DNA from: a virus
Strand: one strand, 5' to 3'
Length of the DNA stretch: 31,897 nt
IMG/VR virus record: IMGVR_UViG_3300045119_000199
Location: 1-31,897 of that record
Part shown: positions 12,668 to 27,747 of the stretch, in pieces
How positions within the stretch are numbered: the first letter of the stretch is position 1
Layout of the letters: every line of letters begins with the position of its first letter
Made by a program: the position numbers and the translations under genes
The notes under the pieces: generated by a model
The model's database searches: none
Told to the model about the DNA's origin: nothing
The model's input: the letters and a program-made list of their open reading frames with translations, nothing else

Positions 12668-14020
12668 TTAAACCCCCAAGCCGGTAGAAGCGACAGTCGA
12701 GCGGCCGTCAATCTGGATGCCGCCGAAAACCGAAACGATTTTCATATCCTGATCCATCGAATAGAAATCGCCCATCATGGCATCCACGCCGCCGCCCATG
12801 CGCTGCGTGTTCGGTAGCTTCGTGTAAATCTGCGGAGTCTCAAAGCCGCTGAGGAAGCCAACCTCGATCGACGGGCGCGCTTGCGATTCAGGGTCAACGG
12901 TAATGCCCCACATGGTTTTTCGCGCCGAGCCCGTGCAAACGATCGGTATGTACGGGTCCATGATCGGGTCGAGTCGCTGAATCATCCAAGGTTGGACGTT
13001 CAAGAACTGAACCGGGAAGCCTTGCGTGTTGCCGACGCCGCCTTGATTCTGCACGAACACGCTTAACGCGTTCATCACGTTGTTGGCGGTTCCCTCGAGC
13101 GACGGCCCGTACCAGAGCTTCAGCCGGCCGGTAATCATGATCGGGTCGCCGGTGGAATCGATCATGCTGGCGAGCACGTTCAACGCGTCGATAATGCCCT
13201 GAGTCGAAAGCACAGGGTTGTTGGTGCTGGCGCCGTTCGCAATGGTGATCTGGTTGTGATAGCCAGTCTGGTACAGCGTCGCGTTGGGCCCGTTGGAATC
13301 GACGTACAGCGAAGTGATGAATTTCGAGATACCACGGTTGCCGCTGATCGCCAGGCGGTTCGCGAGATCCTTGAAGATGCCGAGATCGTCGTTGACGAAG
13401 GCGCGCCAGTTCACCGAAGTCATGGCCTGGTACAGCAACGGCTGATACTGAATCGGCGCCGTCGAAGTCGCCGGCGAGCCGTCTTGCGGATTCGGCCCGA
13501 TCAGCGCGCGCTGTGGAGGCGGCGCCGCGGCGTCCATGGAGGTAAACGGCGTCACGGCGCCGTCGAGCAGGTACCGGGAAACCACGCGGAAATCGCGTAG
13601 CGCGTGAATGCGCGCGAGCGCTTTGTTCACGATCGGGAAGGCGTTGTAATAGCCGTAGTACAGCCGATCGAGCACGTCGACGTAGAGCGCCTGGTAATCC
13701 GTAACGCTCATCGTTTCGCGCAATCCCAACATCCGGCCGCCTGGATCGCCATAGATGCCGGGATACTGGCGCGCCAGGTGCTCGACGAGCACTTCGTTGC
13801 GCGGGAAAACCGCCTCTTTGAAAAACACAGGGTCAAGGCGGCCCGTGATAACGTCGGCGTACAACCGCGTCGCTTCGCGAATCTTGCGCTTGTTCTGCCG
13901 AGCTCGGCCGAAGCCGTCTAGCGTCCTGTGGCCCAACACATGCCCTTCGGTTGGACGGAATTGGCCGCGGCCGTAAGTCAGGCCGCCCGAGTACTGCTCA
14001 TTGGTGTTTGTCAGTTCCAT
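12668..14020 (-). CDS. Major capsid protein (HK97 fold expected)
   Basis: The product has 450 residues. The N-terminal 120 residues are polar and helical, with the long basic helix GRARQNKRKIREATRLYADVI. The body contains SVNWRAFVNDDLGIFKDLANRLAISGNRGISKFI (residues about 203-236), which matches the P-domain spine helix region of Mu gpT-like capsid proteins. The later MITGRLKLWYG and FGGIQIDGRST segments also fit. Position after the protease-scaffold and DUF2190-like genes is canonical. AAGGGAGC upstream of the ATG at 14020 can act as ribosome-binding site. The Mu gpT-like assignment is from the VNDDLG-x-(F/L) motif and size. Confidence 0.85.
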   Translation of the reverse strand: MELTNTNEQYSGGLTYGRGQFRPTEGHVLGHRTLDGFGRARQNKRKIREATRLYADVITGRLDPVFFKEAVFPRNEVLVEHLARQYPGIYGDPGGRMLGLRETMSVTDYQALYVDVLDRLYYGYYNAFPIVNKALARIHALRDFRVVSRYLLDGAVTPFTSMDAAAPPPQRALIGPNPQDGSPATSTAPIQYQPLLYQAMTSVNWRAFVNDDLGIFKDLANRLAISGNRGISKFITSLYVDSNGPNATLYQTGYHNQITIANGASTNNPVLSTQGIIDALNVLASMIDSTGDPIMITGRLKLWYGPSLEGTANNVMNALSVFVQNQGGVGNTQGFPVQFLNVQPWMIQRLDPIMDPYIPIVCTGSARKTMWGITVDPESQARPSIEVGFLSGFETPQIYTKLPNTQRMGGGVDAMMGDFYSMDQDMKIVSVFGGIQIDGRSTVASTGLGV

Positions 14021-14036: not shown

Positions 14037-14447
14037 TTACATTCCGTTCGGCAGTAGCACGCCGGCCGCGGCGTTGGTGGTTCCTGAAAGAATCTTCGGT
14101 TGTTGCGGGTCCAAGTTGCCGAAGAAAACGCCGTTCACGCTGTCGCCGTTGAGCGTGAAGCCGGTTGTTACGTTGGTGGTTGCATCCAACGTTCCGCCTT
14201 CGGCGTAGATTTTGTCGCCGGGCCCAATGTCGCCAGAGACGAGCGGCGAGCCGTGTTGAGCGATCACGCTTAACAGGAACGTCCCGCCGAACAGGAAGCT
14301 TGCGCCGCCTTCGTTCGACTGGTAACTGTCGAGCGCGACGGCCGGAAGCTTGCCGATGAGAACCGGATCGCCGGCCTTCACGGTCGATGGGCAAGGAATA
14401 ATCTGGCGCCGACTCGTCGGCGTGCCGGTGAACTGTTGATTTGTCAT
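14037..14447 (-). CDS. Capsid decoration-like protein (DUF2190-like)
   Basis: The product has 136 residues, beta-rich. PCPSTVKAGDPVLIGKLPAVAL near residues 18-39 and the later SGDIGPGDKIYAEGGTLDATT match the pattern of DUF2190 proteins, small head proteins encoded next to the major capsid gene that are thought to decorate the shell. It begins two bases after the protease-scaffold stop and ends 16 bases before the capsid ATG. No membrane or catalytic features were seen. Confidence 0.7.
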   Translation of the reverse strand: MTNQQFTGTPTSRRQIIPCPSTVKAGDPVLIGKLPAVALDSYQSNEGGASFLFGGTFLLSVIAQHGSPLVSGDIGPGDKIYAEGGTLDATTNVTTGFTLNGDSVNGVFFGNLDPQQPKILSGTTNAAAGVLLPNGM

Positions 14448-14448
14448 G

Positions 14449-14895
14449 TTAGGCGGCGTCCTCTCGGCCGCGGGCGGCCAGTTTGGCGATGTTTTTATCG
14501 CCGGTCAATTCCTCGAGTACTTCGAGATCGGCCTTGCGCTCTTCCTTCAAGAGCTTGCGTTGCGCTTTGGCTTCCTTCGGGTCGATCGAGACGACGGGCC
14601 CGGCGCCCATACCGAACACGCGGCCGCCGCCGTTCGCCTCGGCTAGAAGCTCGCCGATCTCTTTGGCCTCGGCTGCGATCGCTTCGCGAAACTTCGTTTC
14701 GTCAATGGCGCCGTCTGCGGTCGTCGGAACGCCCGACTTCAGAACGGTTTCGATAACGCGAAGTTTGGCTTTGGTCGGAAGCGAAACGCCTTCGAGCAGT
14801 ACAACCGCTTTGCGCTCGGCGGCGTCGCGTAGCAGTTGCGCGCGAAGCGGCGCGTTGCTCGCTTCGATAAGTCGGGTAATTTCCTCAGCGGTCAT
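14449..14895 (-). CDS. Scaffold protein from internal in-frame start (nested gene)
   Basis: Codon 409 of the protease-scaffold gene is an ATG at 14895 preceded by AGGAG at 14905-14909 with nine bases between, a better ribosome-binding site than that of the full-length gene. Translation from it gives 148 residues, MTAEEITRLIEASNAPL onward, covering exactly the coiled-coil scaffold without the protease. This repeats the arrangement of lambda gpC and its nested scaffold gpNu3. Expression is inferred from the site and the domain boundary, not observed. Confidence 0.6.
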   Translation of the reverse strand: MTAEEITRLIEASNAPLRAQLLRDAAERKAVVLLEGVSLPTKAKLRVIETVLKSGVPTTADGAIDETKFREAIAAEAKEIGELLAEANGGGRVFGMGAGPVVSIDPKEAKAQRKLLKEERKADLEVLEELTGDKNIAKLAARGREDAA

Positions 14896-16119
14896 AGTGT
14901 CGCTCTCCTGTGAAGTTGTGGCGCCCGCGGCGCTCTCGGTCAAAATCATTCCACCAGCGCCGGCGCGTGTTACCACGTCGACTGATTCGGCGCTCGTTAA
15001 CTCCGTCAAAATCGGCAACCCGTTTTTCGTCTGCCGGGATTCGGCTTTGCCGCTGGCGCGAATGCTCATGCCAACATGCGGCGCCTTCTCTTCGACAATT
15101 TGCGCGTGATCGGCGAAGACTTTCATGCGCGCGTACAAGCCGGGTCCCTTGGCGTGCGATTCGTTGTAAACCGCGCTCGTCGACAGAACGCCGGCCAGGT
15201 TCTTTACGTCGCCTTCCGGACGTGCCGACTCTTCGGCCGCGGTCGGGTGATTCAGATAAACATGAGTGCCGGCCTTGAAGACTTTCGGCCCGTCGCGCTC
15301 GAGAACTTCTTTCGGGTAGAACGCCGAACTTCCAGGGCCAGGCGCGATGAGCTTAATCTCGTAATCGGCGCGCGCCTCGGTGAGCTTGATTGTCTCGAGC
15401 GTTGCGGCCGCCTCGCACAGTGCGAGCACGCCGAGCGCCGGCGCGATGCGCGACTCGCTCGAGCTCGCCGCCGTGTCGTCGCCGCCCGACGCCTGCCAGG
15501 CTTTCGGTAGGTACTTCGTCCAACCCTTGCGCTTGGCGATCGCGATGATTCGCGCCTTAATGGCTGTCGGCTTCAGGTTCGAAGCGCCGGCGCGGCCGAT
15601 CGAACGAACCGCGGCCATAACGTCGCCCGGTTTCAGGATCGGAAAGCTTTTGCCTTTGCCGGCGAAATCGCTGGCGTCGGCGGCGTCGCGCTCGCTCTTG
15701 GCAATGAATCGCTCGTACAGCGGTAGCCCGGCGTACAGTCCCTCGGCCTTTAGCGCCTCTTCCATCGCGGCGTAGTGATCGGCCTCGCCTGACTCTTCTT
15801 CATAGATCGTACGCGGCACCACGTCAACCGCGGCGTCTGTGTCGATCGAGGCGACTTGGAAGCCGTTCACGGCGCCGATTTCATAAGGCGCTTTGAACAT
15901 GTCGCCGCCACAGCAATACACCACGTCGCCGGCCTTGTCGTCGCCGAAAATGTCTTGAATGTAGCCGTACTGGCCGCTCGTGAGCGCGTCGTTCAGAGCG
16001 TCGGAAAGCCGGCAACGAATGTCAGAATGCGACAGCCCATTGGTTGCGTCGGCTTCCTTCAGGCGCTTCGATTCGTAAGCCGCGGTGAGCTTCATTTGAG
16101 ATTGTGGGCATGTTGACAC
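14449..16119 (-). CDS. Prohead protease fused to scaffold
   Basis: This is a 556-residue polyprotein. Residues 13-130 (ESKRLKEADATNGLSHSDIRCRLSDALND, YGYIQDIFGDD, DVVYCCGGDMF, PYEI) form an N-terminal domain known from phage capsid maturation proteins. Residues about 250-395 look like the protease: YEIKLIAPGPGSSAFYPKEVLERDG, then HVYLNHPTAAEESARPEGDVKNLAGVL with H291, and APHVGMSIRASG with S352 as likely nucleophile. Residues 405-556 are charged coiled coil (LKEERKADLEVLEELTG), typical of an assembly scaffold. It acts inside the procapsid, cleaving scaffold after assembly. The GTG at 16119 has AGGGG five bases upstream; the ATG at 16095 lacks a site. An internal start at 14895 probably makes the scaffold alone. 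Confidence 0.8.
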   Translation of the reverse strand: MSTCPQSQMKLTAAYESKRLKEADATNGLSHSDIRCRLSDALNDALTSGQYGYIQDIFGDDKAGDVVYCCGGDMFKAPYEIGAVNGFQVASIDTDAAVDVVPRTIYEEESGEADHYAAMEEALKAEGLYAGLPLYERFIAKSERDAADASDFAGKGKSFPILKPGDVMAAVRSIGRAGASNLKPTAIKARIIAIAKRKGWTKYLPKAWQASGGDDTAASSSESRIAPALGVLALCEAAATLETIKLTEARADYEIKLIAPGPGSSAFYPKEVLERDGPKVFKAGTHVYLNHPTAAEESARPEGDVKNLAGVLSTSAVYNESHAKGPGLYARMKVFADHAQIVEEKAPHVGMSIRASGKAESRQTKNGLPILTELTSAESVDVVTRAGAGGMILTESAAGATTSQESDTMTAEEITRLIEASNAPLRAQLLRDAAERKAVVLLEGVSLPTKAKLRVIETVLKSGVPTTADGAIDETKFREAIAAEAKEIGELLAEANGGGRVFGMGAGPVVSIDPKEAKAQRKLLKEERKADLEVLEELTGDKNIAKLAARGREDAA

Positions 16120-16649: not shown

Positions 16650-17975
16650 TCACTGTTCGGCTTCGCCGGCGAGCCGGTAGACTTCCGAGCACGCGCAATT
16701 GGGGTGTGCTGGCGGTTCGAAGTCGCCGGAATCGTGCGGCGCGTCGGCCGGGATAAATCCCTCGGCCTCGTTTGCGATGCACGTCTCGCAAGGATTGGTT
16801 TCCGTCTGCCAGGCTTTTTCCACGTCGGCGCCGGTGTCGGCGGCCTGAGTCGCGGCGTCGGCGCCCCCATCGTGGTAGGCGGTCGACACGACGTTAAGCG
16901 CGACAGTATCGGCGCGGCTCATCTTGTCGCCGCCTGGATCGCCGAAGCCGGCGAAGAGCGCGCCAAGAGCCGTCGACGCCGCGGCGAGTGTGAACGGCTC
17001 GAGCGCCTTTAGCGTGTTGTGCGCGCGATCGACGGTTGTACTGTCGAGATCGTCCTCGAGATCGGTACTCGTTTGGTTGCCGTACGGCGTTTGCCGGTCA
17101 AACCGCGCCTCCTCCACCTTCACGCCCAGTTGCGCCGAAGCGTGATCGATTCCAGCGTAGTAAGCTGCAACCTTCACTTTCGCATGTGCTGTGGCGAAGC
17201 TCGAGTCGTGCAACGGTAGCGCCGTGGCGACAACCGCGGCCGCGGTAACGTAATCCGTGGCCGTGTGAGTCTTCAGAGCTCGGCGCACGTTGCGCAATTG
17301 TTTGCGCCATCGCTTCTCGAGCGCGGCGCGCATCTGATCGCGAAGCGGCGCGATCGTCGAGCGGCGCGCGTCGGCCATCAGGTTTTCAACTAAGCGCTTA
17401 TTATCGCGCTCGAAGTCCTTTAGGCCGTATTGACTCCAGTCCATCGGGTCGGCTTCGCCAACTGGGTTTTCAACGTCCTTTGGATCTTCGCCGACGATAT
17501 GCGCGGCGAGCTTCGGGTTGACGTACCAGCGAAAGCGGCTTTCATCGGTGTTGATGTAAGCGACGGCGCCGTGATGGAACTCCCAGAGCTCATCTACAAA
17601 ACAGAATGCGACGGAAGCGAGCAAGCTTTGCACCAGCGGCGAATGAGTGACGACGAGCACAGACTCGGCATCCCATTCCTTCGCGTTGCTCTGGATCTCT
17701 TTCCATGCGGCCTCCGGGTTTCCGTCCGGAAGCAACGAACTTAGATGCTCGATCGGAGTATCACCGCGTACGACAGCCTCGGCGGTTTCCGCGGCGCGCT
17801 CGAAGTCGCTGCACACGATCACGTCGGGTTTCACGTTGGCAATCTTCAAGAACTTGCGCATGACTTTTGCCTGCTCGCGCCCAATATCGTTGAGCGGCCG
17901 CTCGGCGTCCATCTGCGGCCCGTCGTCGGTCAAGCAATGCCGCATGAGATAAAGTTTCACTGTCGCGCCCCCCAT
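16650..17975 (-). CDS. SixA-like histidine phosphatase fused to Mu gpF-type minor head protein
   Basis: The product has 441 residues and two domains. Residues 6-155 match the histidine phosphatase superfamily: LYLMRHCLTDD (R12, H13), RPLNDIGREQA, VIVCSDFERAAETAEAV (R60) and VLVVTHSPLV (H111). The spacing H13-R60-H111 is close to that of SixA, which removes phosphate from protein histidine. The usual RHG reads RHC here. Residues about 185-441 are a head morphogenesis protein with the hallmark KAWQTETNPCETCIANEAEGFI and PPAHPNCACSEVY (C396, C399, H424, C427, C429). This domain sits with the portal inside the procapsid. The ATG at 17975 lies inside the preceding gene. A GTG at 17960, overlapping that gene's stop as GTGA and preceded by a G-run, gives the more usual MKLYLMRH beginning and may be the true start. 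The frame is continuous through both domains. Confidence 0.85.
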   Translation of the reverse strand: MGGATVKLYLMRHCLTDDGPQMDAERPLNDIGREQAKVMRKFLKIANVKPDVIVCSDFERAAETAEAVVRGDTPIEHLSSLLPDGNPEAAWKEIQSNAKEWDAESVLVVTHSPLVQSLLASVAFCFVDELWEFHHGAVAYINTDESRFRWYVNPKLAAHIVGEDPKDVENPVGEADPMDWSQYGLKDFERDNKRLVENLMADARRSTIAPLRDQMRAALEKRWRKQLRNVRRALKTHTATDYVTAAAVVATALPLHDSSFATAHAKVKVAAYYAGIDHASAQLGVKVEEARFDRQTPYGNQTSTDLEDDLDSTTVDRAHNTLKALEPFTLAAASTALGALFAGFGDPGGDKMSRADTVALNVVSTAYHDGGADAATQAADTGADVEKAWQTETNPCETCIANEAEGFIPADAPHDSGDFEPPAHPNCACSEVYRLAGEAEQ

Positions 17976-18194: not shown

Positions 18195-18432
18195 CAAACG
18201 CTTGGTACGGGTGTGGCTGCCAGTGCCGGATGGTAACCGGGTACTCGAGGTTTACAAACAGGCTGCCGGCAACCGGCGTCTGCGTCGGCTTGTCTGAACG
18301 CGTCTCGATCGGCCGCCACTCCATACCACACTTGGGACACTCCCACCGCGTCGCTTCATCCAGCGCGCCAGAGCGCAACATGATACTGATGAGCCGGCCG
18401 CAACACGCGTCTGGCGCGTAGCTGTTAATCAC
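18178..18432 (-). CDS. Small zinc-ribbon-like protein
   Basis: The product has 84 residues. CC at positions 10-11 and WECPKCGMEWRPIE near residues 31-44 suggest a zinc ribbon, followed by a strand-rich half (SLFVNLEYPVTIRHWQPHPY). The GTG at 18432 overlaps the end of the portal gene. The stop at 18178-18180 is the TAG that begins promoter-like element B. Function unknown; the ribbon may serve protein or nucleic-acid binding. Confidence 0.6.
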   Translation of the reverse strand: MINSYAPDACCGRLISIMLRSGALDEATRWECPKCGMEWRPIETRSDKPTQTPVAGSLFVNLEYPVTIRHWQPHPYQAFVPVRG

Positions 18433-20455
18433 GGCCGACGAGCTCGAGCAACGCGTCGACCTTGCGGCGTAGCTTCACGGCTTCGCGCATGCCGTCGCCC
18501 AACGGTTGTTGATCTACTTCGCCGGGTTGGCTTGTCGGGTTTCCATCGGGCGCCTGGATCGTTCCACCTGGCGACGGTTGCGCCTTCGGAATCGGCGCCG
18601 CGATTGGTTCTTTCGTCCGGTCTGGATCGTACTCGCCCTCCGGATACATTTCCTCGATTAGCTCCTCGGCGTCTTCGTAGCCAACCTCCTGCAGCAACAT
18701 CAACACGCCGGCGCGCTCGTCGATGCCGACAATCTGGCCGCCTTTGTTGTCGAGCGTCATAGCCTCGGCGATCGCCTTCACGCGTAGCGACATATCCCCT
18801 TCGCGGATTGCCGGGAACGTTACAGTCACTTCAATGTCGGTCGTTGCCGTCTTGCCCTTCGCCGCGTTGGCTGCCTCAGTAACCGCGGCCGACGTGTCGG
18901 CCTTCGACCATACATACTGCATGCGCCCGTCTGGCCCCAACGCGCGCGCCCGTTCCATAATCACCACGTCTTTAACGTTCACCTTGCGCCGGTCCAACGC
19001 CTCTTTGAACTTGCTCCCTGGCGCCGCGGCGCTCACGCCGAGAACGTATTTCGCGATCACGACCAAATCCTCGCGCCAGGCTTCTTGCCGCTCGAGGAAA
19101 ACAAGCTCGGTCGGCCGGTCAAGCGTCGTCGCCGTCGCCAGGTTGCCGGTTGATACGTCTGAAAGAAACGTTTCAGGAACGCCGACAACCATAGTCGCCA
19201 TAAGCTTGAACTGGCGTACTTCCTCTGGATCGCCGCCTTTGCCGGATGCGTTCATGAAACTTAACTCCGTGCCGGGCCCGCTCACGAACGTTGACGCGTT
19301 GACGGGCGCCGGGTTGGTGTCCCACAGCGCGGCCGATGGCCCAACCGTCGTTGCAAGTTGTTGCTTCAATCCTTCGATGGCTTGCTGGCCGCCCTTCGTT
19401 GTGATCGTCATAGCGAATGTCGCCAGCGCTTGCTTGACAGTTGCGCAAGCCTCGAGGAAGCGGCGCGACGCCTTCGCCCAATCGATCGCCGGGTAAATCT
19501 TCGGGCAACCGAAATTCCACTTGGCTACGGCGCCGTCTTTGCGATGGTATACCGGAACGTCCCACTTTACAGGCTGATTGTTGATCTGTGCCGGTTGCTC
19601 TTTCGGAAGGAAGTTAAGCGCCGGGTGATAGCATTCCTGGTGCTCGGTCGCAATCTGGCCGGTGTTAACGTCGAACTTGCGAGCAACCCAAACGCGCCGG
19701 TAATACCACGGCTGATCGGTGTCGTCTGGATCGGTAATAATATCCATGATCTCGGTCGCATCGATCGAGCGAACCGTCGTTTTTCCGCTGGCCGTCTTGT
19801 CACTGAAGAGCGCCCAGAATAGATTCCCGTCGTAATACTTGCGCTTTTCCGCGTCGACTAATCCCACCTGGCCGAAAACCTTCTGATTGCGATCGAAAAA
19901 GTCTTTCAGTTCGGCGTCGGCGTCTGGGTCCGAGCTCGAGATTTCAACGCCGCGGCCGAAAACATAGATACTGCAAACGTCGATCAGTCGCCGTACGATC
20001 GGGTTTTTGATGTAGTATAGGCGCGAAATCAGGATGATTTGCTGGATTCCCCAACGCGAGAACTCGAGCCAGCTAAGGTTGATCTCTCGGCGCCATTCGA
20101 CGTTCTGCAAGGCGAGCTCTATGTCGCCGAAGGCGCCTTGCTGCAGCGTCGGGTTAGTCTCGCGAATGCGCAAGTCTTCGGCCGTGGCCTCGCGAAGCTT
20201 CTTAGCGCTTTCGTTGGTAGCCAGCGCGGCGCGTGTGCCGGCCGTGAGCCATGGCCCGGCGCCGGCGAATTGTTGCGCCTCCATGCGCTCGGCCGCGTCC
20301 TCTTGCTGCCAGCGCTTGCGCAACGAGTCTTCGTCAAACTTCAGGTTGCGGAGTACTTCAGTAAGAGCGCGAAGGGTGCCGGTGTGATCCGGTGGAGGTT
20401 GCAGCGCTTGGAAGATGCGCGCCAGAATGCGTTGAACTCGCCGCCTGATGTTCAT
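18425..20455 (-). CDS. Portal protein
   Basis: From the ATG at 20455 the protein has 676 residues. After a helical N-terminus, REINLSWLEFSRWGIQQIILISRLYYIKNPIVRRLIDVCSIYVFGRGVEI is the typical portal entry segment. It is followed by FRSIDATEI-like strands (SIDATEIMDIITDPDD), the clip/stem region and PEEVRQFKLMATMVVGVPETFLSDVSTGNLATATTLDRPTELVF, a strong portal signature. The C-terminal crown is acidic and Pro-rich. Twelve copies form the ring through which DNA enters and leaves. The frame stays open up to 20602, but that extension is an Arg/Thr-rich sequence antisense-like to nothing useful and overlaps the well-supported gene at 20358-20675. An ATG at 20476 is another candidate. Confidence 0.9.
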   Translation of the reverse strand: MNIRRRVQRILARIFQALQPPPDHTGTLRALTEVLRNLKFDEDSLRKRWQQEDAAERMEAQQFAGAGPWLTAGTRAALATNESAKKLREATAEDLRIRETNPTLQQGAFGDIELALQNVEWRREINLSWLEFSRWGIQQIILISRLYYIKNPIVRRLIDVCSIYVFGRGVEISSSDPDADAELKDFFDRNQKVFGQVGLVDAEKRKYYDGNLFWALFSDKTASGKTTVRSIDATEIMDIITDPDDTDQPWYYRRVWVARKFDVNTGQIATEHQECYHPALNFLPKEQPAQINNQPVKWDVPVYHRKDGAVAKWNFGCPKIYPAIDWAKASRRFLEACATVKQALATFAMTITTKGGQQAIEGLKQQLATTVGPSAALWDTNPAPVNASTFVSGPGTELSFMNASGKGGDPEEVRQFKLMATMVVGVPETFLSDVSTGNLATATTLDRPTELVFLERQEAWREDLVVIAKYVLGVSAAAPGSKFKEALDRRKVNVKDVVIMERARALGPDGRMQYVWSKADTSAAVTEAANAAKGKTATTDIEVTVTFPAIREGDMSLRVKAIAEAMTLDNKGGQIVGIDERAGVLMLLQEVGYEDAEELIEEMYPEGEYDPDRTKEPIAAPIPKAQPSPGGTIQAPDGNPTSQPGEVDQQPLGDGMREAVKLRRKVDALLELVGRD

Positions 20456-20675
20456 TGCGGTCAAGTTTACCACCATACTTAGCCAGGATCTCGGCCGTAA
20501 GCGCCTGGTTGTTTTCCAGACGGCGCCGACATTCTGAGTGTGTGCAGTGTTGAATGTGCGCGACGTATTCGCGGTACGGCTTGCCGGCCGCCTGGAAGCC
20601 ACAGCGAAACGGCCGCTCTGTACGTTGCCCGTCCATCATTCGCGGCTCATAGCCGCTGAGTCTTGCGCCTACCAT
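20358..20675 (-). CDS. Small zinc-binding protein
   Basis: The product has 105 residues. RPFRCGFQAAGKPYREYVAHIQHCTHSECRRRLENNQ (residues about 21-57) has C25, H40, H43 or C44 and C49 in positions that suggest a zinc finger, followed by a helix TAEILAKYGG. GGAGGA seven bases before the ATG at 20675 makes this the best ribosome-binding site in the block. The last 32 residues, Ser/His-rich, overlap the portal start by about 98 bases. Function unknown; it may regulate or may have a structural role with the portal. Confidence 0.65.
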   Translation of the reverse strand: MVGARLSGYEPRMMDGQRTERPFRCGFQAAGKPYREYVAHIQHCTHSECRRRLENNQALTAEILAKYGGKLDRNEHQAASSTHSGAHLPSAATSTGSHRHPSRSY

Positions 20676-21413: not shown

Positions 21414-21508
21414 CGGCGTGTGGCGCCGCGGCCGTCCATGAATCCCATGAAGTAACAGAGCAACCCGAACACAAAGGCGCATAGGATCATCTTCGTATCG
21501 GTGCTCAT
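21410..21508 (-). CDS. 32-residue single-helix membrane peptide
   Basis: MSTDTKMILCAFVFGLLCYF begins a 32-residue frame with one membrane helix (residues 7-24) and a short basic tail. The ATG at 21508 overlaps the preceding stop by one base (TGATG), and its own stop overlaps the next start as ATGA, so it fits the unbroken chain of coupled genes. GGGG lies seven bases upstream. It may be a small lysis or membrane-associated peptide; function unknown. Confidence 0.5.
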   Translation of the reverse strand: MSTDTKMILCAFVFGLLCYFMGFMDGRGATRR

Positions 21509-22413
21509 CAGTACCCCAACAAATCTAGCCCGCGGAAGTGATCGCGGCCATGAGTCTCGAGTAATAGCCGTACTTCGGCCTCTTGCCATGGCTCGGCGTC
21601 GACGTGTAGGTACTGCATCCATGCCGCGTACGGCTCGAGCCAGGTTGCCGGCAACTGGTTAAACGTCCATGGCCGGTTCATGTTCATCTGGCGCGCCAGC
21701 GTCGAGTTAGGATCGGTTGCCGGCCCGTAGGTGTGTTCGATCTCGGCCGCCGTCTTATGCGGCCAACGTAACCGCTCGGTGATCTTGTAGAGCGCGTGCT
21801 TTGCCCGTAGCCGGCGCTCGGAGGCGCCCCACAGGTGTACAACGCCGCCGTACCCCTGGCGTAACGGGCGCCAGCGGTTCCAACCGCAACCGAACGGCTC
21901 GCGATGGTGAAAGCGATCGCCGCCCGATTCCCAGTTGAGCGCCGGCCCATCTTTGAACGCGGTACTAAACCAGCGGTTTCCCCAAATGCCGTTGGTGTGG
22001 TACCGCCAATGGTTCGGCTCGTCGCAACACTGGCGAATGTTGTAGCCTGGCAGTTCCAACATCATGCCGGGCGCCAGGCTGAAGACGTGGCCGCGAATGT
22101 CGGACAGAATGTTAGGCGTTAGAAACTCGTCGGCGTCGACGATCGCGATATGTGTGGCGCCCACTTCGAACGATCGCGCGAGCTCGAGCAACGCTTGACG
22201 ATGCCTCATTTCGTCCCATAGCGGCTTCTCGTCGCCCACCACGATAACGCGGTCCCGATAATCCGCGGCCGCGGTTAGTGCGATCGCGGCGCTATCGTCA
22301 TTGCACGCGTGAAGTAAGACAACAACTTGATCGCACCACTGCAATGCAACGCGTAACGTCAAGCCGAGACACCACGCCTCGTTGCGGACGGGCATCAGGC
22401 CAACGAGTTTCAC
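21508..22413 (-). CDS. Glycosyltransferase, GT-A fold (GT2-like)
   Basis: The product has 301 residues. The start MKLVGLMPVRNEAWCLGLTL is the nucleotide-sugar binding strand and loop of family 2-like glycosyltransferases. HIAIVDADEFLTP (residues 88-100) supplies the DxD-type metal-binding motif. LLHACNDDSAAI and the later WRYHTNGIWGN and VVHLWGASERRLRAKHALYKITERLR segments fit enzymes that resemble SPBc2-type and eukaryote-like GT2 variants. It would transfer a sugar to an unknown acceptor. It is coupled by ATGA to the sigma-like gene upstream. Acceptor candidates are a virion protein, phage DNA or host surface glycan. Confidence 0.8.
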   Translation of the reverse strand: MKLVGLMPVRNEAWCLGLTLRVALQWCDQVVVLLHACNDDSAAIALTAAADYRDRVIVVGDEKPLWDEMRHRQALLELARSFEVGATHIAIVDADEFLTPNILSDIRGHVFSLAPGMMLELPGYNIRQCCDEPNHWRYHTNGIWGNRWFSTAFKDGPALNWESGGDRFHHREPFGCGWNRWRPLRQGYGGVVHLWGASERRLRAKHALYKITERLRWPHKTAAEIEHTYGPATDPNSTLARQMNMNRPWTFNQLPATWLEPYAAWMQYLHVDAEPWQEAEVRLLLETHGRDHFRGLDLLGY

Positions 22414-22946
22414 GCGCCGAGCTCCTGGCGCATGCGTAGCATTGCGTACGTTTTCGCGGCGCCCATCCGGTTATGAGAAATTTGCATTTCGGTGCGAATG
22501 TCGCCCGTCGACCATCCGGCCGCCAAGAGACAAGCGACGGCGTAGCCGCGGCCGCTCATGCCAGCATGCGCCTGGCGCGGCTTTAAGCCGGCCACGGCGC
22601 GGCGCACGCAAACGCGCGCTATGATTCGATCTTCGATGTTACAGCCGTCCGGAATCGCAACCGGCCGCTCTTCGTCGTCGAGCGTCACTACCTCAACCGC
22701 GGCCAGATTGTTCCGCGTGCCGCTAACGGCGTACTTGCGCATTTGATCCTTTAGCGCGCCCACAACGCGAAGTCGTGCGAACTGCCAGAATGTCGAGCCG
22801 CGGGTTGGGTCGAACCGCGGAGCTACTTCGGCGAGCGTCAAGTAAGCAATTCCTATCGCGTCGTCTGGCTCGAGCGGCCCGCGGTTGCGAAGCGCCTGCA
22901 ACCGGGCGTTAGGCATTGCGTCCAGTATCATCCGTTCCATATCCAT
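22410..22946 (-). CDS. RNA polymerase sigma-factor-like protein
   Basis: The product has 178 residues. Residues 28-72 (DDAIGIAYLTLAEVAPRFDPTRG, then STFWQFARLRVVGALKDQMRKY) match sigma-70 family region 2, with the FDPTRG-x-x-F-x-x-(Y/F)A-x-x-R-(I/V)-x-GA pattern that is most like FliA-type factors. Residues about 117-172 (AVAGLKPRQ, CLLAAGWSTGDIRTEMQISHNRMGAAKTYAMLRMR) form a helix-turn-helix in the place of region 4. It would direct host RNA polymerase to phage promoters; the TAGTTGCGCAA elements in this window are natural candidates. GAGG lies two bases before the ATG at 22946 and eight bases before an in-frame ATG at 22940, so 22940 may be the real start. Confidence 0.7.
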   Translation of the reverse strand: MDMERMILDAMPNARLQALRNRGPLEPDDAIGIAYLTLAEVAPRFDPTRGSTFWQFARLRVVGALKDQMRKYAVSGTRNNLAAVEVVTLDDEERPVAIPDGCNIEDRIIARVCVRRAVAGLKPRQAHAGMSGRGYAVACLLAAGWSTGDIRTEMQISHNRMGAAKTYAMLRMRQELGA

Positions 22947-22956
22947 CGCCTCGATT

Positions 22957-23574
22957 TTACTTCGGTAGAACGAAGAGCGAATCCCAATGCCCTACGCCGG
23001 TTCCCTGTTTGGAAAGCTCATGCTGGATACAGTGATAGCCGAGCGTGTGCAGCCGGGCGCAAGCGCGCTCGCAACCGCGTTGCTTTCCTGGCCCCGTCCA
23101 ATCGTGAAACTCGACGCTGATCTGTGTCGCGATCGCCGCGGGTAGGTTCTCGAGGATGCCGAACTCTGAGCCTTCGCAATCCAGCTTGATCGCGTCGAAC
23201 GTCTCGCGCTGGTTGGAATATAAGAGTTTGGCAATGTTGATCGCGAGCACGCGCCGTATCTTGTAATCGCCGTGGCTTTCCGCCTCGAGCGCGAAGTTGC
23301 CGCCGCCGTCGCCGGCGATTCCCTCGGCGAAGTTGGTAGAAAATTGGTCGCCGCCGATCAGAGCCAGGCGGAAGAAGTGAACTTGTGCGGCCGGTAGATC
23401 CATGGCCCATTCAACATCGCTCGACGGGTCAAGCGCGATGATCTGAGCCTTTGGGCGCCAAGCGAGAACGCCGCGGGTAAAGTCGAACCAGCGGCAACCA
23501 ACGTCTAACACGAACGGCTCATCTGGTAACAGGTCAACATCGATGGTGTGCGAAGCAAGCGTTTGCAGATTCAT
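22957..23574 (-). CDS. FkbM-like methyltransferase
   Basis: The product has 205 residues from the ATG at 23574, which overlaps the preceding stop as ATGA; the long upstream extension is an unrelated Arg-rich frame. FVLDVGCRWF (residues 21-30) is the SAM-binding motif I and IIALDPS (45-51) the acidic strand. FDAIKLDCEGSEFGILENL (126-144) is the hallmark of the FkbM family, whose members O-methylate sugars and polyketides. The end VGHWDSLFVLPK closes the Rossmann-like sheet. Within this cassette a methylated sugar is a likely product. Confidence 0.8.
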   Translation of the reverse strand: MNLQTLASHTIDVDLLPDEPFVLDVGCRWFDFTRGVLAWRPKAQIIALDPSSDVEWAMDLPAAQVHFFRLALIGGDQFSTNFAEGIAGDGGGNFALEAESHGDYKIRRVLAINIAKLLYSNQRETFDAIKLDCEGSEFGILENLPAAIATQISVEFHDWTGPGKQRGCERACARLHTLGYHCIQHELSKQGTGVGHWDSLFVLPK

Positions 23575-23816
23575 TGCGGCTTTCCCTTTGTCCAGTCGAA
23601 CGGTTTGAAGCTGAAGCCTTCCGGTGTGATGATTGAGACGGCCGCGATCGCCCGCGGCGGCCCGTTCGGCTGTCGGACGCACAGGAATAGATTGCCGTCC
23701 TGTAACACTAGCGCCGTGCCGTGTTTCTTCATGACCGCTTGCACGTCGTTGAGCACGTCTTCGCCGCGGTCTGGATCGCCCGGCCGCGGCTCGGTGATAA
23801 CCCGCGGCCCGCTCAT
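23571..23816 (-). CDS. Small unknown protein
   Basis: The product has 81 residues. The pattern VLNDVQAVMKKHGTALVLQDGNLFLCVRQPNGPPRAIAAVSIITPEGFSF, in outline, is a helix followed by three strands. Similar small proteins occur in other phages, but I cannot name a family. GAGGA lies five bases before the ATG at 23816, which also overlaps the preceding stop as ATGA. Its stop overlaps the FkbM start as ATGA. Confidence 0.6.
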   Translation of the reverse strand: MSGPRVITEPRPGDPDRGEDVLNDVQAVMKKHGTALVLQDGNLFLCVRQPNGPPRAIAAVSIITPEGFSFKPFDWTKGKPQ

Positions 23817-23944
23817 CGTTTCCTCTTGAGCCAGGCGCGCAATCTGGTGCCGGCGCGTGTTCCAATGTCGCCGGCGATCGCCTCGAGCACGGCATAAGTG
23901 GCGACGGCGGCCGCAACGCCTAACAGAACGTCCCGCGTGCTCAT
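23813..23944 (-). CDS. 43-residue small membrane protein
   Basis: The frame MSTRDVLLGVAAAVATYAVL continues through EAIAGDIGTR and ends with the basic LRAWLKRKR. One membrane helix (residues 5-24) and a strongly positive C-terminus are visible. The ATG at 23944 overlaps the TylF-like stop as ATGA and its own stop overlaps the next ATG in the same way, so it occupies the gap exactly and very likely is translated. Function unknown. Confidence 0.65.
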   Translation of the reverse strand: MSTRDVLLGVAAAVATYAVLEAIAGDIGTRAGTRLRAWLKRKR

Positions 23945-24555
23945 GTCCACTTTCGCCACGCGATCGGCGCCGGCATCACGGTTTGATGCAAAGCATACCT
24001 GCAGCCGGCCAGGTCGTAATCATCGCAAATGATGTAACCGCCTTTGGCAACCAACGGGTACAGGTGCTCCATGCAAACTTTCGTCGACTCGTACAAGTCG
24101 CCGTCGAGCCGAAGCAAGGCGATCGCCTTCACTTCATACGACTCCGCGGTGTAACGCACGGTATCGCGGAAGTCGCCGACGTGGTACACCAGAAGCTCAT
24201 CCGGAATGCCCCACTTGCGCATATTGTTTTTGACATTCGGCAACGAACAGCGCGCCTCGCCCTGGCGCACTTGCGCCGGGTCGTCATGCGGGCCCGGCGC
24301 CGGGATTCCATCGAAGCTATCGAACAGGTGAACGCGCCGCGATCCATCGAACGGCATCACACTAGGGCTGTTGTGGTGATCTAAGATCGCGCGCGCCATA
24401 ATCGCGCAACTGGCGCCGGCGAACACGCCACACTCGACGAAATCGCCGGGAATGCCGCGGGCAAGCACGTTGCGCGCCAGGTCGTACGTCTGCTCTTGGC
24501 TCGTACGATGGCCGAGCGCCGATTGACAGACTTGTTCAAACCACTCTTGATTCAT
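23941..24555 (-). CDS. TylF/MycF-like O-methyltransferase
   Basis: The product has 204 residues from the ATG at 24555. GDFVECGVFAGASCAIMA (residues 37-54) is the family's SAM-binding start. RVHLFDSFDGIPAPG (74-88), KAIALLRLDGDLYESTKVCMEHLYPLV (143-169) and KGGYIICDDYDLAGCRYAL (171-189) are the TylF/macrocin O-methyltransferase signatures, including the Asp residues that bind metal. Family members methylate hydroxyls of sugars. The real start is fixed by the ATGA overlap with the preceding small gene; the upstream extension of the frame is not protein-like. Confidence 0.85.
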   Translation of the reverse strand: MNQEWFEQVCQSALGHRTSQEQTYDLARNVLARGIPGDFVECGVFAGASCAIMARAILDHHNSPSVMPFDGSRRVHLFDSFDGIPAPGPHDDPAQVRQGEARCSLPNVKNNMRKWGIPDELLVYHVGDFRDTVRYTAESYEVKAIALLRLDGDLYESTKVCMEHLYPLVAKGGYIICDDYDLAGCRYALHQTVMPAPIAWRKWT

Positions 24556-24710
24556 ACTCCAACCCCCATATCGCCCTCGAGTCGCTTCACCGCGGCCGGC
24601 GCCGGCGCTTGGGCGAGCGGCCCTTCGCATTCCGTGTAAGTCAACACTTCCACGTCGCCTAGTTTTTTGTGCAGCGCTTCTAACCGTTCGATGTATTCGC
24701 TGATCTTCAT
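24552..24710 (-). CDS. Small conserved-type phage protein
   Basis: The product has 52 residues, MKISEYIERLEALHKKLGDV followed by EVLTYTECEGPL. A helix followed by a DVEVLTY strand is a common small-phage-protein pattern, one of the MTISELI..L..GD..V type. ATGA overlaps at both ends tie it to its neighbours. Function unknown. Confidence 0.6.
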   Translation of the reverse strand: MKISEYIERLEALHKKLGDVEVLTYTECEGPLAQAPAPAAVKRLEGDMGVGV

Positions 24711-25492
24711 ACGTTGCAGTACTTGCTCCCTGTGCGATCGAGGATGTTTCCAGAGCGCCATTGCTGGCAGAACAGTTGAGGGTAGGCGTCCTCTGGCTTA
24801 TAGGTGCCGTTGTTGTGAACGGGCCATCCGTTTTGATCGGGCGTTCGATGCGTCGGAATCCCGTACTTGACGGCCAGGTTTCCCAACACAGATTGCTCGC
24901 AACTGTTCTTAAACAGCGTCGGGTCGTCGAGCACGCCGAGCACGGATGATTTCTCATGGAACGTGCAAGACGGATTGAGCGAGTAGGTTTGCCACTCGGC
25001 TAGGAACTGTTCAACGCGGTAGTTGCCGGCGCGATAGAGCGAGAACCGGCCGCAAGCTTGCGGCGCGTCGTAGTAGTGCGGTTGGTTCAAACAGCCCATG
25101 GCGTGAAAGCAATCCGCTTTCGTCCACTGCCGGTTGATGCAACCTTGCTCTTCAAACAACATGATTCCTTCGCGCTCGGTGTATTCGAAGAGACACGAAA
25201 CGTCGGACACTGGAAAGCTATCACCGTCCAGATAGAGCACCACGTCGCCGGGTTGGCAGTAGTGCGCGAGCGCGTGTTTGATGATGTACGGTTTCCATGA
25301 ACAGAAGCCGAAGCCGTGTTGTGGCTCGCGCTCGAAGATCCAACGATTGAGGGTGTAGAACGGCGTCGTCATGAGCCAGGCATCGTCATAGACGCGGTGG
25401 TGTAGCATGTTGCCCTGGCAGTATTGCACCTGGCGCGCGACTTGCTCATCGTAGGCTACGCCGCCGAAGGTAATCAGAATACGCTTGCTCAT
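24707..25492 (-). CDS. Glycosyltransferase-like protein
   Basis: The product has 261 residues from the ATG at 25492 (ATGA overlap). KRILITFGGVAYDEQVARQV begins a Rossmann-like domain and GFCSWKPYIIKHAL with GDVVLYLDGDSFPV (residues 82-95) supplies a DxD-type motif. This resembles glycosyltransferases of the mannosyltransferase or capsular type (WKP-x-x-I followed by YLDGD). The C-terminal half has several Cys and the segment ILDRTGSKYCNV. The donor and acceptor are unknown. It lies between two methyltransferase-like genes, which supports a joint pathway. Confidence 0.7.
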   Translation of the reverse strand: MSKRILITFGGVAYDEQVARQVQYCQGNMLHHRVYDDAWLMTTPFYTLNRWIFEREPQHGFGFCSWKPYIIKHALAHYCQPGDVVLYLDGDSFPVSDVSCLFEYTEREGIMLFEEQGCINRQWTKADCFHAMGCLNQPHYYDAPQACGRFSLYRAGNYRVEQFLAEWQTYSLNPSCTFHEKSSVLGVLDDPTLFKNSCEQSVLGNLAVKYGIPTHRTPDQNGWPVHNNGTYKPEDAYPQLFCQQWRSGNILDRTGSKYCNV

Positions 25493-25959
25493 TGCCAGAG
25501 CCTCGAGGCGAGCTCGTTGGATTGCGTCAAGACTAGCGTCCACGGCCGGGCGCGTTTGTCGACAATGTGATATTTCCAGCGGTCGAGCTCGAGCGAGTCG
25601 AAGATTTCCGGCGCCGGGTAATCGTGAATTACGATGTACTCGGCCGAGTCGACGAACAGCAAGGCGTCGGCCGCGCGCCGGTGTCCATTATGATCGAGGA
25701 AGACGATGGACCATTTCTCACTTGCGCAATTCCTCAGCGTCGTTGTCATTTGCGAAAGCGGGCAATAGGCACTAACCGTCTTCATGGCCCACGCTGGATC
25801 TTCCTCGAAGGACTGGAAGAAGCGCCCGGCGACTTCGCAGTATTTGCGCAACAACGGCGTCGACCATTCGCCAGAGCCAACCTCGAGCACGGGCCCGCTC
25901 GTTGCTAACAGGCAACTGAACAGCGCCGGCAGATGAGACGCCCACATTTGCTCGCTCAT
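25489..25959 (-). CDS. Class I SAM methyltransferase-like protein
   Basis: The product has 156 residues from the ATG at 25959 (ATGA overlap). GPVLEVGSGEWSTPLLRKYCEVAGRFFQSFEED (residues 22-54) has motif I and an acidic second strand, as in class I SAM-binding folds. WSIVFLDHNGHRRAADALLFVDSAEYIVIHDYPAPE matches motifs of small methyltransferases that carry a DH or HD pair for metal binding. It is shorter than most members. Substrate unknown; a sugar or glycan is suggested by its neighbours. Confidence 0.65.
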   Translation of the reverse strand: MSEQMWASHLPALFSCLLATSGPVLEVGSGEWSTPLLRKYCEVAGRFFQSFEEDPAWAMKTVSAYCPLSQMTTTLRNCASEKWSIVFLDHNGHRRAADALLFVDSAEYIVIHDYPAPEIFDSLELDRWKYHIVDKRARPWTLVLTQSNELASRLWQ

Positions 25960-26180
25960 CGGTTTACTGGTTTCCCTTCGATAGTCACCAGCGTAAGATG
26001 TAAAATCCTCGAATTTGGTAGCGCTTCGTCGAAGCGGGCCTCGTAAGCGACTCCCTCGCACTTAGCCTTATAGAGCGGCCGCTCGCCGCGCTTCAGTGCC
26101 GCGGATACCTGCTTGTAGACAGCCTCCGAAAACGATAATGTGAGTCCTTCTGTCAGGTCCTTCTCTGTCGGGAACATCAT
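25956..26180 (-). CDS. Small unknown protein
   Basis: The product has 74 residues, with a charged N-terminal helix (FPTEKDLTEGLTLSFSEAVYKQVSAALKRGERP) and a strand-rich second half (YKAKCEGVAYEARFDE, ILHLTLVTIEGKPV). The ATG at 26180 overlaps the preceding stop. A second ATG directly after it (26177) is four bases from GGAGG and may be used instead. Its stop overlaps the next start as ATGA. Function unknown. Confidence 0.55.
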   Translation of the reverse strand: MMFPTEKDLTEGLTLSFSEAVYKQVSAALKRGERPLYKAKCEGVAYEARFDEALPNSRILHLTLVTIEGKPVNR

Positions 26181-26974
26181 GCCTCCAATGGTTCGTGGCC
26201 GGGAAAGCCGCCTGCTTTGCGCGCCGCGAATAGCGCTTTACTTCGGTCCCAATCGCTTAACCGCGGGTCGTTGATCTTCTTCGCCCACTCGGGCGCGTCG
26301 CGCCAGTCGCCGCGCGGCCGGGCCCAGTGCCGATGCTCCTGCAGTAAGTCGCGCCGCTGCCAGAACACGCCGAGCTTTTGCGCGACGTTCTGTAACTCTT
26401 CGTCGGCGAAGTTGTGATAGTAGCCGTTGTACATCGGCCCTGAGCCGTGATACATGCGCCGGCAGAACTCGCGCCCCATCCAGGGCGAGCCGGCGATACG
26501 GTCGATTGTGGCTTGTCGGCCCGTGCCGCCGCACGCGTCGCACAGTATCGACATACTGCTAACGCCCATGCACTTTAGACAGCGAGCCTCGCCCCATCGG
26601 TCGCCGGTCGGTTGCATGACTCCGAAAGTCGGAGTCGAACGGCGCCCTTTCAGAGTCTCGAGGGTGTGAAAGTATTCGCCACACTCGGCCGCGATCTCGG
26701 CGGCCGTCTTCGTTGGGTCCGGATAGTAATCATCGCCGCCCGTGACAAACCACTCGGCGTCGGAATGAGCGGCCATGCACGCGTTTACTAACAGGTTTAC
26801 CGATCGCGCCCAACCGATATATTGCTCGACGACGCCTTGAAAGTCTGCGCACGTTCGGCCGTCTGCGTCTTCGCGCAACACGGCGACTTCGTAGCCCTGG
26901 CCGAGCCAAGCATCAATACAAGCGTTCGCCTCGGCCAGCGGCCGCTTGGATGGAATCACAAACCAGACGCTCAT
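26177..26974 (-). CDS. Glycosyltransferase-like protein with zinc-finger insertion
   Basis: The product has 265 residues. VWFVIPSKRPLAEANACIDAW begins a GT-A-like domain, and EWFVTGGDDYYPDP (residues 74-87) carries the acidic metal-binding motif. Between residues 132 and 152, CLKC and CDACGGTG form two CxxC pairs. The second is a DnaJ-type CxxCxGxG, an unusual insertion in a glycosyltransferase. The C-terminus has many Trp and basic residues (HWARPRGDWRDAPEW). The start overlaps the preceding stop as ATGA. Whether it is catalytic is uncertain. Confidence 0.65.
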   Translation of the reverse strand: MSVWFVIPSKRPLAEANACIDAWLGQGYEVAVLREDADGRTCADFQGVVEQYIGWARSVNLLVNACMAAHSDAEWFVTGGDDYYPDPTKTAAEIAAECGEYFHTLETLKGRRSTPTFGVMQPTGDRWGEARCLKCMGVSSMSILCDACGGTGRQATIDRIAGSPWMGREFCRRMYHGSGPMYNGYYHNFADEELQNVAQKLGVFWQRRDLLQEHRHWARPRGDWRDAPEWAKKINDPRLSDWDRSKALFAARKAGGFPGHEPLEA

Positions 26975-27747
26975 GGATACAACCTATCCCGCGCGTACGC
27001 GTCCCACTCTGGCGCCCGGCGCCACTCTGGGTTGATATGTGGTTTGTGCCGGTCGAACAAGTGGCCGGCCTCGCTCGACGACCAAAACGAGCCGCTGATA
27101 TTGGCGCCGTGAGTCTCGGCAATCAACATCGGGCCCGGTAGAACGCTTGGCAAGCCAACACCGTTGACGGCGTTAACCCTGACACGCTTGCAGAAGTCTG
27201 GATCTTCGTAAGTGAGCTTTTCGGAAAAAGCCGCGTTGCGCCACGTCTCGCGCCAGTAGGCGAGCGACGTTCCTACCACCATCGGCCGGATGGAATTGTA
27301 GCCGCCGAAGCGCCGGTAATCGTACTCCCACGCGTGGAAGATTGGCGCCGGCACATGCACGGCGCGCGTGTCGAGAAAGAGCAGGTTATGAAAGCCGGTC
27401 GCCGGTTGATCGCGAAGGCTTGCGACTTGGCATACCACACGCTCGGGCCCGCTCCAGTCGTCGGAGTCAAACGTTACGATCACGTCGGCGCCGGTGAGCT
27501 CGAGCGCCGCATTGCGCAACGCCCCAACCTTGCGCGCCTCTTCCGGTTGACGATCGCGAACGATAGCAATGAGTGAATGCGCCGCTCTGTCAGTGAGCTT
27601 GTACGGTACCTTGCCGGTGTCGTATATGAGCATGTGGGCGTTGCCGGCGTAGGTCTGCGATACAAAGCACGCAACGGCGCGATCGGTGAACGCCTGGCGA
27701 TCGGCAGTGAGACAGAGACAACACACCGAAGGCGCCGCGTTAGCCAT
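26971..27747 (-). CDS. Glycosyltransferase family 2-like protein
   Basis: The product has 258 residues. SVCCLCLTADRQAFTDRAVACFVSQTY (residues 7-33) is the start of a GT2 domain, GALRNAALELTGADVIVTFDSDDWSGPERV (75-104) supplies the donor-binding DxD motif as DSDD. The later YEDPDFCKRV (near 187) is like the acceptor ED motif. It would transfer a sugar from a nucleotide donor. The ATG at 27747 overlaps the preceding gene by eight bases (AATGGCTAA). Confidence 0.85.
   Translation of the reverse strand: MANAAPSVCCLCLTADRQAFTDRAVACFVSQTYAGNAHMLIYDTGKVPYKLTDRAAHSLIAIVRDRQPEEARKVGALRNAALELTGADVIVTFDSDDWSGPERVVCQVASLRDQPATGFHNLLFLDTRAVHVPAPIFHAWEYDYRRFGGYNSIRPMVVGTSLAYWRETWRNAAFSEKLTYEDPDFCKRVRVNAVNGVGLPSVLPGPMLIAETHGANISGSFWSSSEAGHLFDRHKPHINPEWRRAPEWDAYARDRLYP

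Follow-up and report, generated by a model that had tools for sequence, protein, structure and literature searches.

A SixA-type histidine phosphatase fused to a MuF-type minor head protein in uncultured phages

The fusion gene lies between portal and protease genes

We analysed a 31.9 kb virus contig (31,897 nucleotides), hereafter the window, whose recognised head genes all lie on the minus strand. A portal protein gene (18425–20602; phrog_10963, 3.4e-62) is followed by a small ORF and then by the gene studied here (16650–17975), after which come a head maturation protease (14449–16119; phrog_15531, 8.5e-32), a probable cement (decoration) protein (14037–14447; PF09956, 0.0024, under the cut-off) and the major capsid protein (12668–14020; PF25209, 2.6e-14). 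The protease is the next recognised gene downstream, with small ORFs in between. The gene's place just after the portal gene agrees with the head location proposed in the original prediction. Its longest frame runs for 441 codons (441 aa) without an internal stop, bearing out the single continuous frame described there. Translation probably starts at a GTG at 17960 and not at the ATG at 17975, giving 436 aa, since close relatives begin at this point and a GGGGGG stretch precedes the GTG. Residue numbers below are those of the 441-codon frame; counted from the GTG, the catalytic pair of the window protein becomes R7–H8, the same as in SixA.

A transferase cassette (21508–27747) occupies the region between terminase and portal genes. 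It comprises glycosyltransferases of GT2-like type at 21508–22413 and, weakly, at 26971–27747, and methyltransferases of the FkbM (22957–23568) and TylF (23941–24600) types; it possibly serves sugar modification of the virion or the host. A similar glycosyltransferase-like ORF lies upstream of the portal gene in contigs L061 (3903–4835) and L063 (3697–4578). Within the cassette, the ORF at 22410–22946 matches sigma-70 region 2 just above the cut-off (E 2.5e-5) and is a possible phage sigma factor.

The N-terminal domain is a SixA-type phosphatase

Residues 6–160 (17496–17960) form a SixA-type histidine phosphatase domain, recognised by two profile models and by its predicted fold. Pfam His_Phos_1 (PF00300) matches at E 1.3e-14 and scores 54.7 bits, where 21.7 is the cut-off. 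The best solved relative found by phmmer is E. coli SixA (1ujb; E 1.2e-7, residues 7–154), and in this alignment R12, H13, R60 and H111 fall column for column on SixA R7, H8, R55 and H108, which confirms the spacing first read from the sequence. The corresponding codons are 17937–17942 for R12–H13, of which H13 is the nucleophile, 17796–17798 for R60 and 17643–17645 for H111. In the AlphaFold2 model of the window protein (six-sequence alignment, mean pLDDT 72.6), residues 6–158 superpose on 1ujb with Z 20.5 and an r.m.s.d. of 2.2 Å over 149 aligned residues, identifying a histidine phosphatase (PGM-like) fold, as the original prediction had expected. Comparison with viral models returned histidine phosphatases on the one hand and minor capsid or head morphogenesis proteins on the other. 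The NCBI SixA model TIGR00249 matches residues 7–152 with 63.0 bits, under its curated equivalog cut-off of 74.5, and the window protein is thus placed as a SixA-type domain below the class of SixA equivalog. Another fused relative, L166, also scores under this cut-off (45.7 bits).

The window protein reads RHC where SixA reads RHG, a change originally flagged as a possible loss of activity. Among the 22 members of the family described below, the third position of the motif is variable (C in 5, A in 16, G in 1), such that all but one relative have RHC or RHA. The catalytic letters are the first two, R and H, so RHC by itself should be no argument against activity, and we reject the idea of catalytic loss through this change.

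Sugars, nucleotides and cofactors are among the other substrates of the histidine phosphatase superfamily. Fold and catalytic residues therefore do not fix the substrate, and the enzyme might hydrolyse a small molecule, such as a nucleotide or a signal of host defence, in place of protein phosphohistidine. The breadth of the superfamily allows this, as do structural matches of the window model at Z 16–18 that include nucleotide and cofactor phosphatases. We nevertheless regard it as quite unlikely: SixA itself is the best match in both sequence and structure, and two stand-alone relatives exceed the SixA equivalog cut-off (L144, 96.6 bits; L152, 84.5 bits). A comparison with known defence proteins gave no match, which speaks against this alternative, though it is silent on counter-defence, and led us to reject the reading of the window protein as a listed defence-system protein.

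The C-terminal part is a MuF-type head protein

A linker and the helical MuF body (residues 161–350; 16926–17495) follow the phosphatase domain. This region contains long helices in the AlphaFold2 model and, judged by identity to relatives, is the fastest-changing part of the window protein. The C-terminal part of MuF (residues 351–435; 16671–16925) is matched by PHROG 2662 and by Phage_Mu_F (PF04233) at residues 352–430; the head-protein half is also matched by PHROG head families. The PF04233 match of the window protein itself (E 1.7e-4, 22.8 bits) is under the cut-off of 29.6; among relatives, five of six close family members are matched (best E 3.1e-7), and L145 (43.6 bits), L059 (33.1) and L160 (33.9) pass the cut-off. 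The expected Mu gpF-type cysteine signature is present as C396-x2-C399 ... H424-P-N-C427-x-C429 (CETC...HPNCAC, residues 396–429) and is found in every fused relative. The window gene is hence confirmed as a true fusion of a SixA-type phosphatase with a MuF-type minor head protein.

In L166 (8590–10611), an insert of about 230 residues lies exactly between the HPN and the C of the cysteine motif. By eye it is intein-like, with an NHPMLT block and an end reading GLYCSDGFVVSN before the C; a Pfam search of the insert matched no family. Inteins favour conserved essential sites, and the position of this insert therefore hints that the motif matters.

SixA is the constant and MuF the variable part of the family

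Relatives were gathered by scanning viral contigs with growing alignments. The window protein as a single query retrieved no relative from the viral contigs, whereas portal and small-alignment queries did. The resulting family has 22 distinct proteins, the window protein and 21 others from uncultured phage contigs. The fusion recurs in independent contigs, in keeping with the suggestion that the same architecture be sought in other phages. An assembly or sequencing error that joined two genes, the artefact most to be feared with a fusion, can be put aside as vanishingly improbable: several metagenome projects contributed independent contigs in which the same fusion occurs with different sequences, and we found nothing in favour of an error. 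Chance resemblance is likewise ruled out by the 21 further distinct contigs with the same SixA domain and by the invariance of the four catalytic columns.

Three architectures can be distinguished. In type I, SixA is followed by a full MuF (window, L002, L006, L007, L058, L061, L145, L158 with its near-copy L159, L160, L162 and L166). Type II proteins carry the MuF cysteine module only, inserted before the last SixA strand (L140, L141, L142, L154, L157; the L154 protein is identical in L156 and cut short in L155). The final SixA strand of these proteins (LHWMVTPN) comes after the cysteine module, and the model of L140 aligns with 1ujb from residue 1 to residue 237 (Z 19.8). Type III is SixA alone (L143, L144, L152, L153, L161, L163); neither PF04233 nor the family profile detected MuF in these six contigs, which are possibly incomplete. 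Type III proteins have 180–201 aa in total, including a C-terminal extension of about 20–50 residues past the end of the fold, compared with 146–168 aa for the cellular SixA homologues examined. SixA is thus the constant part of the family and MuF the variable part. That the MuF cysteine module is joined in two ways, by C-terminal fusion and by insertion inside the fold, suggests a functional link to SixA.

In all relatives whose neighbours are known, the family gene sits between the portal and protease genes. The proposal that the phosphatase is simply carried by MuF is incomplete, since several relatives retain SixA in this position although no MuF could be detected in their contigs.

The catalytic residues are invariant and the domain is under purifying selection

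R12, H13, R60 and H111 are retained in 22 of 22 proteins at a mean pairwise identity of 40%, and the catalytic histidines, on which the original prediction had hinged, are thus kept throughout. Twelve of 153 columns are invariant and all four catalytic columns are among them, a result with a probability of 2e-5 if invariant columns were placed at random. A further histidine outside the catalytic four, H135 (17571–17573), is also invariant in all 22 phage proteins. Identity to the nearest relatives is 57–67% for the SixA domain of the window protein, close to that of portal (56–70%), protease (59–63%) and capsid (61–72%), and 32–55% for the MuF body. Comparisons with the window itself were saturated for dN/dS; the pair L154 and L157 gives a value of about 0.11 for SixA, the same as for portal, protease and capsid. 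Purifying selection hence keeps the SixA domain as strictly as the head proteins.

These data bear on whether the head has taken over the SixA fold as a structural element, with catalysis no longer needed. The constant position between portal and protease would suit such a part, as would residence in the head module even where MuF is missing. Structure alone, however, would not demand that four catalytic residues stay unchanged across 22 sequences whose average difference is 60% of positions, and we consider a purely structural role very unlikely.

In a tree with nine cellular SixA proteins, the phage proteins fall on one side of a branch with support 98/94; with 26 cellular rows, support for the same branch is 71/99. 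Recent capture of SixA is rejected because the SixA part resembles the rest in GC and GC3. Type III as a single clade is rejected (AU p 0.00013), and types II and III are intermixed on the SixA tree, indicating that the cysteine module was gained or lost more than once. A single origin of type I is compatible with the tree test (p 0.15). Judged from these trees, the architecture has switched several times, with the place of the gene constant.

Comparison with known systems and searches for a host

The phage domain shares with E. coli SixA (1ujb; TIGR00249) its fold, its length and the R-H / R / H catalytic set, and SixA is its closest sequence match. The phage forms differ in the third letter of the first motif and in being sited in a phage head operon, fused to or interrupted by a head module. 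With MuF/SPP1 gp7-type minor head proteins (PF04233), the window protein shares a position downstream of the portal, the C-x2-C ... HPNC-x-C motif and a helical body. It differs in its N-terminal phosphatase, and some of its relatives keep only the cysteine module or no MuF at all.

Enzymes joined to MuF are known already as MuF polymorphic toxins and MuF–enzyme fusions, which are thought to be loaded into the head and co-delivered with DNA (PMC5576092; PMC5512222; PMC3482391). In these toxins MuF forms the N terminus and a variable toxin domain the C terminus, whereas here the domain order is reversed, the phosphatase being N-terminal and constant and MuF variable. The text of those three papers contains no phosphatase terms. 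No paper with both MuF and a histidine phosphatase turned up in openly licensed PMC text, in line with the original impression that no such fusion was known, and a tblastn search of INPHARED gave no cultured phage with the fusion. As far as searched, an N-terminal phosphatase that stays constant while MuF varies is new, as is a MuF cysteine module inside the SixA fold.

A scan of genome contigs with patterns fitting the window's own subgroup found cellular SixA genes only and no prophage. A portal search of six single genomes and of 882 genomes from the phyla of three cellular SixA loci (L038, Verrucomicrobia; L017, an Actinobacteria-labelled bin; L042, Chloroflexi) gave no host and, having no positive control, shows little. 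A stand-alone SixA protein is also encoded by L004 (OR850995.1), a 3.7 kb record that is unverified and carries the label Salmonella phage; the record is possibly a piece of bacterial chromosome.

Proposed roles: a virion-borne phosphatase or a late enzyme

Published work bears on how the enzyme might act. One or two copies of a MuF protein are located at the portal, SPP1 gp7 being the case cited (PMC5576092). The 80alpha protein gp44, a minor capsid protein encoded between portal and scaffold genes, is packaged at about two copies per capsid, is called an ejection protein and is needed after injection (PMC7290940); it is likened to the window protein by position, although it binds and protects DNA ends and no phosphatase is described for it. 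Delivery with the DNA is the presumed route of MuF-linked enzymes (PMC5576092, PMC5512222), and the best-documented targets dephosphorylated by SixA are the phosphocarrier NPr (PMC7948535, PMC6282199) and the nucleoside diphosphate kinase Ndk (PMC12934123). Taken together, the portal location of MuF, the ejection of gp44 and the targets of SixA make a virion-borne phosphatase acting at entry the likeliest role for the window protein.

We thus tentatively favour, at somewhat less than even confidence, an active SixA-type phosphatase that would be held in the head by MuF and possibly ejected with the DNA, and that would act on host phosphohistidine proteins. According to this model, the phosphatase has long belonged to the head genes of one group of uncultured tailed phages. 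Through fusion to MuF, one to a few copies would come to lie at the portal within the capsid, from where the enzyme may exit with the DNA. Phosphohistidine proteins of the host would then be dephosphorylated in the first minutes of infection, ahead of late gene expression.

The main difficulty is type III. With six relatives in whose contigs no MuF was found, a virion location through MuF cannot be general; either the type III proteins are packaged through their own C-terminal extension or the enzyme has a late role in the producing cell. In the latter case, an active phosphatase would work late, and fusion to MuF would only set its number per head or couple its expression to assembly. Membership of the head operon, which implies late expression, is what would be expected of such an enzyme, and it would also accommodate both the stand-alone SixA proteins at the same place with no detectable MuF and the several switches of architecture on the SixA tree at a constant gene place. 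On the other hand, it is hard to see what an enzyme acting late and only in the cytoplasm would gain from being joined repeatedly to a portal-associated module, and the extension past the end of the fold could package the stand-alone forms. A late role is for these reasons unlikely in our view, though it is the strongest rival of delivery at entry.

Implications

Delivery at entry can be extended from the window protein to its relatives: a whole environmental phage lineage would package a phosphohistidine phosphatase as a standard head part and, on entry, use it to dephosphorylate phosphocarriers of the host or its nucleoside diphosphate kinase. This broader claim is more doubtful than that for the window protein, and we hold it to be rather unlikely as it stands. 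If true, histidine phosphorylation would come under attack by an enzyme delivered from the virion, and we found no precedent for this; to our knowledge, the activities so far described for enzymes that are delivered from the head or linked to MuF are ADP-ribosylation, nucleotide synthesis, proteolysis and RNA cleavage. Because the fused, inserted and stand-alone forms share one gene place, the contribution of MuF to packaging and delivery can be tested directly. If it entered together with the DNA, a phosphohistidine phosphatase would have access to the phosphotransfer relays and the NTP balance of the host from the very start of infection.
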